Origin: Pseudolabrys sp. | GTDB taxonomy: Bacteria; Pseudomonadota; Alphaproteobacteria; Rhizobiales; Xanthobacteraceae | Reading direction: 5' to 3' | DNA: 50,394 nucleotides | Assembly: GCA_019689975.1 (NCBI GenBank) | Contig: JADGGK010000016.1 | Location: forward strand, 1 to 50,394 | The notes under the pieces: generated by a model | The model's database searches: none | What the model saw: only the letters and a program-made list of their open reading frames with translations | What the model was told of the DNA's origin: nothing | Program-made: the position numbers and the translations under genes | Part shown: piece after piece, positions 43,183 through 47,004 of the stretch | Layout: every line of letters starts with the position of its first letter | Position numbering within the stretch: position 1 is the first letter of the stretch

Positions 43183-43211
43183 TTGACCGTTATGCGGCGG
43201 GCCCTTATAAC
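43183..43211 (+). promoter_or_regulatory. ilv operon promoter
   Basis: TTGACC at 43183-43188 and TATAAC at 43206-43211 are 17 bases apart, a near-consensus promoter. Transcription should start near 43218, about 21 bases before the leader-peptide ATG. It is the only strong promoter seen ahead of ilvB. Confidence 0.7.
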
Positions 43212-43238
43212 CGCGCAATGAAAGTTCGAGCGGGAATA

Positions 43239-43292
43239 ATGTTACGCAATATTATTATCGTAAGCGAGGTTCGGACGTTGGCCAGGTCCTGA
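43239..43292 (+). CDS. Leader peptide of the ilv attenuator
   Basis: A 17-residue peptide, MLRNIIIVSEVRTLARS, ending in TGA. Seven residues are Ile, Val or Leu, with three Ile codons and a Val codon in a row (43251-43262). GAGCGGGA lies just upstream. It sits between the promoter at 43183 and the terminator before ilvB, where attenuation leaders of branched-chain operons occur. Ribosome stalling at these codons would sense shortage of charged Ile/Val/Leu tRNAs. The peptide itself needs no further role. Confidence 0.8.
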   Translation: MLRNIIIVSEVRTLARS

Positions 43293-43341
43293 CAGGGACC
43301 GCAGGCGAGCGTCCGGACATGGCCCGTTGCGGGCCTTTTTT
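43270..43341 (+). terminator. Attenuator with alternative hairpins upstream of ilvB
   Basis: An intrinsic terminator, GGCCCG-TTG-CGGGCC at 43321-43335, is followed by six T (43336-43341). Two upstream pairings compete with it. TTCGGACG (43270-43277) pairs with CGTCCGGA (43310-43317). GGCCAGGTCC (43280-43289) pairs with GGACATGGCC (43315-43324, one mismatch) and would remove four bases of the terminator's 5' strand. A ribosome stalled on the Ile codons leaves 43280-43289 free to antiterminate; one at the stop codon covers it and lets the terminator form. The pairings come from direct reading of the sequence. Confidence 0.78.
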
Positions 43342-43376
43342 ATTGCCCCGGGCAGGTACAACGAAGGACAAGGACG

Positions 43377-45137
43377 ATGGCACGCGAAATGACCGGCGCC
43401 GAAATGGTGATCGAGGCGCTTGCCGATCAGGGCGTCAAGCACCTGTTCGGCTATCCGGGGGGCGCGGTGCTGCCGATCTACGACGCGCTGTTCGCGCAGG
43501 ACCGGGTCAAGCACGTGCTGGTGCGCCACGAGCAAGGCGCCGTGCACGCGGCCGAAGGCTATGCGCGCTCCACCGGCAAGGTCGGGTGCGTCCTGGTGAC
43601 GTCGGGTCCCGGCGCCACCAATGCGGTGACCGGATTGACCGACGCGCTGATGGATTCGATCCCGATCGTCTGCATCACCGGGCAAGTGCCGACGCATCTG
43701 ATCGGCAACGACGCTTTCCAGGAGTGCGACACCGTCGGCATCACGCGGCCGTGCACGAAGCACAATTATCTCGTCAAGAGCGTCGGCGATCTCCCGCGCG
43801 TCCTGCATGAGGCGTTCCATATCGCCGCGAGCGGACGCCCGGGCCCGGTGGTGGTCGACATTCCGAAGGATGTCCAGTTCGCGCGCGGCGTCTACGCGAA
43901 GCCGAAGGACTTTCCGCATACCGGCTACCGGCCGAGGCTCAAGGGCGACATGGACAAGATCCGCCAGGCGATCGAGCTGATGGCGCAGGCCAAGCGGCCG
44001 GTGTTCTACACCGGCGGCGGCGTGATCAATTCCGGCAGGGCCGCGAGCGAGCTGCTGCGCGAGCTCGTCAAGCTGACGGGCTTTCCGATCACGTCGACCT
44101 TGATGGGGCTCGGCGCCTTTCCCGCCGGCGATCCGCAATGGCTCGGCATGCTCGGCATGCACGGCACGCTCGAAGCCAACATGGCGATGCATGATTGCGA
44201 CGTGATGATCTGCATCGGCGCGCGCTTCGACGACCGCATCACCGGGCGGCTCGACGCCTTCTCGCCCGGTTCCAAGAAGATCCACGTCGACATCGATCCT
44301 TCCTCGATCAACAAGAACGTCAAGGTCGACGTCGCGGTCGTGGGCGACTGCGCGCATGTGCTGGAAGACATGGTGCGGTTGTGGCGGACCCAGGCAAGGC
44401 AACCGGACAAGAGCGCGCTCGCCGACTGGTGGCGGCAGATCGAAAAATGGCGTGCGCGCCGCTCGCTCGCCTATCGTCCGTCGAACGAGGTGATCAAGCC
44501 GCAATACGCCATCCAGCGGCTCTACGAACTCACCAAGGACAAGGACGTCTACATCACCACCGAAGTCGGTCAGCACCAGATGTGGGCGGCGCAGTTCTAC
44601 CGCTTCCAGGAACCGAATCGCTGGATGACCTCCGGCGGGCTCGGCACCATGGGTTACGGCCTGCCGGCTTCGGTCGGAGTCCAGCTGGCGCATCCGCGCT
44701 CGCTGGTGATCGACATAGCCGGGGAGGCGTCGGTGCTCATGACCATGCAGGAGCTGTCGACCGCGGTGCAATACCGGCTGCCCATCAAGGTGTTCATCCT
44801 CAACAACCAATACATGGGCATGGTCCGGCAATGGCAGGAACTGCTGCACGGCGGGCGCTATGCCGAAAGCTATTCGGCGGCGCTTCCGGACTTCGTCAAA
44901 CTCGCCGAGGCCTATCACGCCTGCGGCATCCGCTGCGAGAAGCCGGGCGACCTCGACCACGCCATCAAGGAGATGATCGCGGTCGACAAGCCGGTGCTGT
45001 TCGACTGCGTGGTGGATCCGAAGGAGAACTGCTTCCCGATGATCCCCTCGGGCCGCGCGCACAACGAGATGATCCTGGGGGATGCCGGCGTCAGCCCCGA
45101 GGAGGCGGTGACGGAGGAAGGCAGGGTGATGGTATGA
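43377..45137 (+). CDS. ilvB: Acetolactate synthase, large (catalytic) subunit
   Basis: A 586-residue ThDP/FAD enzyme making acetolactate or acetohydroxybutyrate, the first shared step of Val/Leu/Ile synthesis. The ThDP-activating Glu is E52 (VLVRHEQGAVHAAEGYAR), LFGYPGGAVLPIYDAL and VTSGPGATNAVTGLTDALMD are typical, and the C-terminal third has VFILNNQYMGMVRQWQ. The ThDP/Mg loop reads IAGEASVLM, with E450 where GDG or GDA is more usual. The start follows the attenuator by 35 bases. ilvN follows after 199 bases. Confidence 0.96.
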   Translation: MAREMTGAEMVIEALADQGVKHLFGYPGGAVLPIYDALFAQDRVKHVLVRHEQGAVHAAEGYARSTGKVGCVLVTSGPGATNAVTGLTDALMDSIPIVCITGQVPTHLIGNDAFQECDTVGITRPCTKHNYLVKSVGDLPRVLHEAFHIAASGRPGPVVVDIPKDVQFARGVYAKPKDFPHTGYRPRLKGDMDKIRQAIELMAQAKRPVFYTGGGVINSGRAASELLRELVKLTGFPITSTLMGLGAFPAGDPQWLGMLGMHGTLEANMAMHDCDVMICIGARFDDRITGRLDAFSPGSKKIHVDIDPSSINKNVKVDVAVVGDCAHVLEDMVRLWRTQARQPDKSALADWWRQIEKWRARRSLAYRPSNEVIKPQYAIQRLYELTKDKDVYITTEVGQHQMWAAQFYRFQEPNRWMTSGGLGTMGYGLPASVGVQLAHPRSLVIDIAGEASVLMTMQELSTAVQYRLPIKVFILNNQYMGMVRQWQELLHGGRYAESYSAALPDFVKLAEAYHACGIRCEKPGDLDHAIKEMIAVDKPVLFDCVVDPKENCFPMIPSGRAHNEMILGDAGVSPEEAVTEEGRVMV

Positions 45138-45336: not shown

Positions 45337-45894
45337 ATGAACGCTCCGGCACCCACCAGCCATTACCCCGCCGCGCCGACGGCGCAAACGGTCGAGACGC
45401 ATACGCTGTCGGTTCTGGTCGACAACGAGCCGGGCGTGCTCGCCCGCGTCATCGGCCTGTTCTCCGGGCGGGGCTACAACATCGAGTCGCTCACGGTCTC
45501 GGAGACGGAGCACCAGAAGCACCTTTCGCTGATCACCATCGTCACGACCGGCACGCCGATGGTGATCGAGCAGATCAAGAACCAGCTCGACCGGCTGGTG
45601 CCGGTGCATCGCGTCGTGGACATGACTCTCGCCGGCAACTCGATCGAACGCGAACTCGCAATGGTCAAGGTGCGGGGCAGGGGCGAGCACCGCGTCGAGG
45701 CGCTGCGGCTCGCCGACGCCTTTCGCGCGCGCGTGATCGACGCCACGACCGAGAGTTTCGTGTTCGAGATCACGGGCAAGAGCGACAAGATCGAGCAGTT
45801 CATCGAGCTGATGCTGCCGCTCGGCCTCGTCGAGGTGGCGCGCACCGGCATCGCGGCGATCGCGCGCGGGCCGGAAGGGATGGCGGCGCGTTGA
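45337..45894 (+). CDS. ilvN: Acetolactate synthase, small (regulatory) subunit
   Basis: A 185-residue regulatory subunit that stimulates IlvB and confers valine feedback inhibition. The ACT domain is near the start (HTLSVLVDNEPGVLARVIGL, then GRGYNIESLTVSETEHQKHL), and the C-terminal domain includes RELAMVKVRGRGEHRVEALR. A 199-base spacer from ilvB holds a 44-codon ORF (45195 onward) with no support as a gene. Confidence 0.95.
   Translation: MNAPAPTSHYPAAPTAQTVETHTLSVLVDNEPGVLARVIGLFSGRGYNIESLTVSETEHQKHLSLITIVTTGTPMVIEQIKNQLDRLVPVHRVVDMTLAGNSIERELAMVKVRGRGEHRVEALRLADAFRARVIDATTESFVFEITGKSDKIEQFIELMLPLGLVEVARTGIAAIARGPEGMAAR

Positions 45895-45927: not shown

Positions 45928-47004
<1,077 letters not shown>

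Follow-up and report, generated by a model that had tools for sequence, protein, structure and literature searches.

A probable leader-peptide attenuator of ilvBNC in Pseudolabrys sp. and its relatives before ilvB across the Hyphomicrobiales

In Pseudolabrys sp., the gap between miaA and ilvB holds a leader that is very probably a cis-acting, ribosome-mediated transcription attenuator of ilvBNC. We observe here a short open reading frame (ORF) with a run of branched-chain amino acid (BCAA) codons, a hairpin (P2), an intrinsic terminator, a position directly before ilvB, conservation among relatives, and a codon bias within the run. From these features we infer ribosome stalling, a key codon, an antiterminating pairing, and a response to starvation. 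All positions refer to the window, the whole 50,394-nucleotide stretch that was analyzed (contig JADGGK010000016.1). An earlier sequence-only reading had proposed a branched-chain leader-peptide attenuator of ilvBNC at this site, and the proposal is backed by the conserved ORF, P2, the terminator, and the place before ilvB.

RESULTS

The elements of the leader all lie on the + strand. Its putative promoter (43183 to 43211) consists of TTGACC (43183 to 43188), a 17-nt spacer, and TATAAC (43206 to 43211), from which transcription would be expected to start near 43218. When TTGAC was used as the search anchor for the genus comparison, TTGAC and then a -10-like box (at least 4 of 6 matches) were found in 20 genus leaders, with a 17-nt spacing in 18 of the 20. 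The leader ORF runs from an ATG at 43239 to a TGA at 43290 to 43292 and encodes the 17-residue peptide MLRNIIIVSEVRTLARS, in which three Ile codons (43251 to 43259) are followed by the Val codon GTA (43260 to 43262), making an Ile-Ile-Ile-Val run. An intrinsic terminator (43321 to 43341) sits between this ORF and ilvB, the first structural gene, and is made of GGCCCG (43321 to 43326), a TTG loop, CGGGCC (43330 to 43335), and six T (43336 to 43341). Our pattern scan caught the terminator and missed the promoter because its rule demands a -10 box ending in T. A letter-by-letter check confirmed the coordinates previously given for the promoter, the 17-residue ORF, the long hairpin, and the six-T terminator before ilvB. 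By NCBIfam equivalogs, the order on this strand is miaA, a 237-base gap that contains the leader, ilvB (acetolactate synthase large subunit; 43377 to 45137; NF006581.0, 1135.5 bits), ilvN (acetolactate synthase small subunit; 45337 to 45894; NF008864.0), and ilvC (ketol-acid reductoisomerase; 45985 to 47004; NF004017.0). Elsewhere, the window carries an Rfam serC leader (RF00517; 2020 to 2071; 71.2 bits) and, on the minus strand, an alphaproteobacterial transfer-messenger RNA (RF01849; 30232 to 30639) for which ARAGORN gives the tag ANDNYAPVAQAA.

All 20 genus loci whose upstream region is complete, that of the window among them, have a leader ORF with a BCAA run. This genus sample covers 20 of 24 genomes; the locus of G009 is cut at a contig start, and G006, G008, and G019 are without a fetched locus. 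As read from these sequences, this is a short leader ORF with codons for the products of the operon. There is also an in-frame ATG at 43218, absent from the earlier reading, which lies near the expected transcription start and would give a 24-residue peptide. A leaderless start at this codon is possible in the window's genome. We prefer the 17-residue start because 11 of the 20 genus sequences in the alignment have ACG at 43218, while the internal start codon is kept in all 20.

The GGGCC of the terminator is invariant across the 20-sequence genus alignment. With up to three mismatches allowed, the terminator and the bases following it match once in the window and in 0 of 100 shuffles. An ATTG at 43342 to 43345, past the point where the terminated RNA should end, is kept in 19 of the 20 genus leaders.

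The hairpin P2 is formed by 11 pairs between 43269 to 43279 and 43308 to 43318, and its 5' strand lies inside the leader ORF, as in a protector hairpin. In the genus alignment, 89% of cells in P2 are paired and six pairs are changed on both sides. None of 500 shuffles had a covariation score as high, and pairing in six slid registers amounts to just 23 to 43%. P2 is, on this comparative evidence, supported by covariation.

We then examined how often such a leader precedes ilvB, using a detector that looks for a short ORF with an Ile/Leu/Val run and then a terminator. Thirty IlvB loci were fetched from genomes in the genus and order to which the window belongs, and a further 80 came from named genomes. 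Counting that of the window, 105 distinct IlvB-found loci had upstream sequence and served as the unbiased set. A leader ORF and terminator were detected at 78 of these 105 loci fetched through IlvB alone. Over all ilvB upstream regions the detector was positive in 129 of 156, a set in which 51 come from leader-model hits and are biased. Controls drawn from all 156 loci were positive in 1 of 468 shuffles (which preserve base composition only), 0 of 156 reversed sequences, and 0 of 156 opposite strands. Judged by these comparisons, the leader before ilvB is not a chance arrangement. The detector was negative at 27 of the 105 loci. Read by eye, L020, L038, and L040 among them carry a leader that was lost to the strict rules, and no leader was visible by eye in L023, L044, L058, and L108. 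Across the ilvB loci L002 to L111, miaA was found within 1500 bases upstream of 20 of 27 leader-negative and 21 of 78 leader-positive loci.

The distribution of miaA bears on a simpler account, in which miaA would simply end in this terminator and the short ORF would be accidental. The presence of miaA just upstream on the same strand would suit it. However, on that strand miaA is absent from the 1500 bases upstream of 57 of the 78 detected leaders, so the leader does not go with miaA, and most loci without a detected leader do have miaA within that distance. The putative promoter separates the terminator from miaA, and the rarity of detector hits in shuffled sequence also speaks against an accidental ORF. 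We regard this account as having next to no chance of being right.

A covariance model, R1, was made from the alignment (A1) of the 20 genus leaders. It found one place in the window's own genome. Among family genomes 59 of 149 were matched and among order genomes 39 of 199, each of them once, with the own genome belonging to both samples. For all 58 fetched matches, which are the best-scoring of each search among 96 distinct places and include two loci of the training alignment (L112 and L114), ilvB follows directly on the same strand, no more than about 200 bases away. Because R1 contains no ilvB sequence, the association between leader and ilvB is real.

At the gathering score, an Rfam scan returned no family at the leader. 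When the RF02502 (Rhizobiales sRNA Atu_C8) model was aligned directly, it matched end to end with window positions 43241 to 43352, at 18.2 bits against a gathering score of 50. At an E value of 0.001, RF02502 had no match in the window's own genome, and it matched 0 of 14 control genomes, Caulobacter vibrioides among them. RF02502 was found directly before ilvB in 16 of 20 ilvB loci chosen for scanning, and in the order sample it matched 99 of 199 genomes, 27 of them above the cut-off. Among the 33 matches examined, of 102 listed, 31 are followed by an ilvB gene: 29 of 30 automatically fetched loci precede ilvB, and 2 of 3 further ones precede an ilvB-like gene. In the Agrobacterium locus L100, the RF02502 stretch encodes MKNLNVLIVVGRRMGRMV. 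By a reading of two tables, 31 of the 39 order-sample matches of R1 overlap an RF02502 match, and these shared places indicate that intermediate forms join the window-type leader to RF02502. The two are alike in place and architecture, with a position before ilvB, a BCAA leader ORF, a hairpin, and a terminator. They differ in that the window leader falls below the gathering score and in that RF02502 is filed as an sRNA gene and not as a leader. As far as the alignment tells, the window leader is a diverged relative of RF02502 that would work like Atu_C8 without reaching its score. Atu_C8 itself is probably an ilv leader attenuator of its hosts and not a free-standing sRNA gene, which suggests the real nature of an element catalogued as an sRNA.

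Atu_C8 is said to stem from an Agrobacterium paper. We found no statement of Atu_C8 as an ilv leader in the open-license literature, where the sole match to the name concerns, by its title, rice phytocyanins. The main texts of PMC4201532, PMC3927594, and PMC3738593 contain no word beginning with "ilv."

The filing of RF02502 as an sRNA gene also favors a reading in which the leader acts mainly in trans, with the terminated RNA or the peptide regulating other mRNAs and attenuation of ilvB being a side effect. Such action has a parallel in Sinorhizobium, where, in the passages available of PMC7298713 and PMC10117765, the trp attenuator yields a trans-acting sRNA and peptide. A free sRNA would nevertheless have no need of ilvB downstream, where the gene stands after every fetched R1 match and after 31 of the 33 examined RF02502 matches. 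We judge mainly trans action highly improbable and continue to favor attenuation in cis. For the terminated leader RNA, the filing of the homologous Atu_C8 offers an indirect hint, by analogy.

Two RF02502 matches were exceptions to the ilvB pattern. In L220 (1501 to 2844) and L246 (1903 to 3330), the leaders encode the Val-rich peptides MMIAIDMVVVGRRMGTAA and MKIAMVLIVVIERMGGMA, respectively, and the gene downstream encodes an MFS transporter that belongs to the Bcr/CflA family or is close to it. The two loci come from two different families of the order. Against TIGR00710 (cut-off 200.9), the L220 protein scores above the cut-off (216.7 bits) and the L246 protein below it (163.4 bits); the two proteins share 47% identity over 394 columns. 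Because the longest frame of the L220 gene starts within the leader, its true start probably lies further downstream. These arrangements suggest a transporter that may be under BCAA-type attenuation. A further locus, L245 (G193:C1049:7949-8069), is one of its genome's two Atu_C8-type leaders and stands before a second ilvB-like gene.

To model stalling, we folded transcripts ending in the terminator loop after removing the part under a stalled ribosome. The ribosome shadow, counted from the first base of the codon in the A site, was set at 12 nt, a value taken from general background. In the window, the terminator arm was then paired at 0.52 for a stall on the first Ile codon, 0.07 on the second, 0.04 on the third, 0.05 on the Val codon at 43260, 0.30 on Ser, and 0.96 on Glu. 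The earlier reading had held that the geometry agrees with stalling at 43251 to 43262. The fold model of the window gives this no support at the 12-nt shadow, where stalls on the second and third Ile codons and on Val leave the arm free. The value of 0.52 at the first Ile reflects a weak pairing on the immediate 5' side of P2, which stays intact; for stalls on the first Ile, the 20 genus leaders span 0.21 to 0.77. P2 is broken only once the ribosome edge passes about 43275 to 43278, and a stall on the Val codon at 43260 needs a shadow of 15 to 18 nt (about 15 nt or more) to do so.

Across 129 leaders, the median sequestration of the terminator arm at 12 nt rose from 0.9 kcal/mol at the first codon of the run to 1.9 kcal/mol at the last, and for the last codon it was 3.1 kcal/mol at 18 nt. 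In this wider set, but not in the window, the fold model prefers a stall late in the run to one at its beginning. With the ribosome at the stop codon the median was 2.8 kcal/mol, versus 3.1 kcal/mol with the ribosome on P2, values too close for the fold model to tell a stall from a stop. When the 3' arm of the terminator was included, the terminator kept an advantage of at least 5.1 kcal/mol whichever of the computed stall positions in the window was considered, which means that any antitermination would need to be kinetic.

The sequence-only reading had also drawn an antiterminator in which GGCCAGGTCC (43280 to 43289) pairs with GGACATGGCC (43315 to 43324), a 3' strand that overlaps P2 and the terminator. 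The two candidate strands do pair at 9 of 10 positions in the window, but this pairing is not conserved and has no covariation support. In the 20 genus members, the changed pairs, changed cells, and pair types are all at shuffle level. The percentage paired was 73.7, compared with 69.6 in shuffles (reached by 6 of 500), and it was also above that of slid registers. Over 126 leaders, the power of the segment to take up the terminator arm equaled that of its own shuffles, which preserve base composition only (mean z of -0.02). We keep the antiterminator as drawn only as a candidate, since neither covariation nor shuffles support it. When folds were inspected by eye for a better conserved antiterminator, candidate partners differed between genomes. 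In several folds, that of the window included, the 5' end formed a candidate long-range helix with bases around the T run.

Codon usage in the run differs from that in ilvB. In 74 of 78 leaders, the last codon of the run is for Val. GTA accounts for 97 of the 142 Val codons in the run in the wider set, versus 81 of 4538 in ilvB (106 loci), and in the genus, GTA is in the run of 20 of 20 leaders versus 7 of 869 Val codons in their ilvB genes. AT-richness was considered as a cause and rejected: GTT, with the same AT content, shows no enrichment (6 of 142 Val codons in the run versus 391 of 4538 in ilvB), and the part of these leaders that follows the run has GTA at only 1 of 53 Val codons. ATT is also overrepresented among Ile codons, with 76 of 118 in the run versus 596 of 4070 in ilvB, where it is a minority codon. 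By approximate distances, for which P2 was placed from single-sequence folds with some helices of only 1 to 4 pairs, the last codon of the run lies a median of 6 nt before P2 (129 leaders) and the last Ile codon a median of 12 nt before it (123 leaders). The window's genome has, among 45 tRNA hits, one tRNA-Val gene each for UAC, GAC, and CAC.

Codon choice and spacing together point to valine and hint that the rare GTA codon (43260 to 43262 in the window) may be the main sensor. In a rival reading, the ribosome would stall on the three Ile codons and Ile would be the main signal. Ile codons are indeed common in the run and are mostly ATT, and in the window, at the 12-nt shadow, a first-Ile stall sequesters far more of the terminator arm than a Val stall. 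However, that first-Ile effect leaves P2 whole and depends on weak pairing, the second and third Ile stalls have little effect, the last Ile codon is farther from P2 than the last codon of the run, and the skew of GTA is far above that of ATT. We consider Ile as the main signal unlikely, though it deserves weight, and take valine as the preferred signal below.

DISCUSSION

We propose that RNA polymerase would start near 43218 and that a ribosome would trail it through the leader ORF. With charged tRNAs, the ribosome would reach the stop codon, or P2 would form, leaving the terminator free so that transcription would end near 43341. The same end would be expected with no ribosome on the leader, when P2 would form. 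When a charged branched-chain tRNA is scarce, most likely tRNA-Val, the ribosome would wait at the end of the Ile/Val run and cover the 5' strand of P2, thereby freeing its 3' strand. This freed strand and the 5' arm of the terminator would then enter an alternative pairing, and ilvBNC would be transcribed.

A bolder version combines several of these points for the whole order: attenuation would depend on the rare GTA codon (read here by a single-copy tRNA-Val UAC) and would use no dedicated antiterminator, a stall would melt P2 and unspecific pairing would delay the terminator, and the terminated RNA (Atu_C8) would also act in trans. Taken as a whole, we consider this combination improbable.

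This analysis brings a family of ilv leaders across the Hyphomicrobiales under one description, and it sharpens a loose claim of Ile stalling to a testable one, namely that the rare GTA codon beside P2 may be the main sensor. In passages of PMC1183508, Elf and Ehrenberg relate leader codon bias in attenuation to the starvation sensitivity of single isoacceptors, and replacement of CUA by CUG in the Salmonella leu leader is described there as giving lower sensitivity. A Val sensor based on GTA would, by analogy, fit this pattern.

Among known ilv attenuators, that of Caulobacter crescentus ilvBN is alike in coming from an alphaproteobacterium and in having tandem Ile and Val leader codons and a Rho-independent terminator before ilvBN. 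The likeness is one of description and not helix by helix, since it draws on the account of Tarleton 1994 in part of PMC4117421, where attenuation with Ile and Val codons is described. It differs in that RF02502 has no match in C. vibrioides. The ilvBN and ilvGMEDA leaders of Escherichia coli share a BCAA-rich leader peptide, a terminator, and the same pathway, and, in the portion of PMC6123439 available, their peptides are 32 residues long with 11 and 15 BCAAs, respectively, compared with 17 residues and 7 BCAAs in the window. That portion also cites Vitreschak 2004 for putative attenuators of BCAA genes across Gram-negative species. For Sinorhizobium meliloti, a relative, an excerpt of PMC2573895 cites the same work for a cis-regulatory element of ilvIH; it is likened here by description, as a known or predicted element before genes for the same enzyme. 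Attenuators of this kind are thus already known, and the present leader would be a further example.
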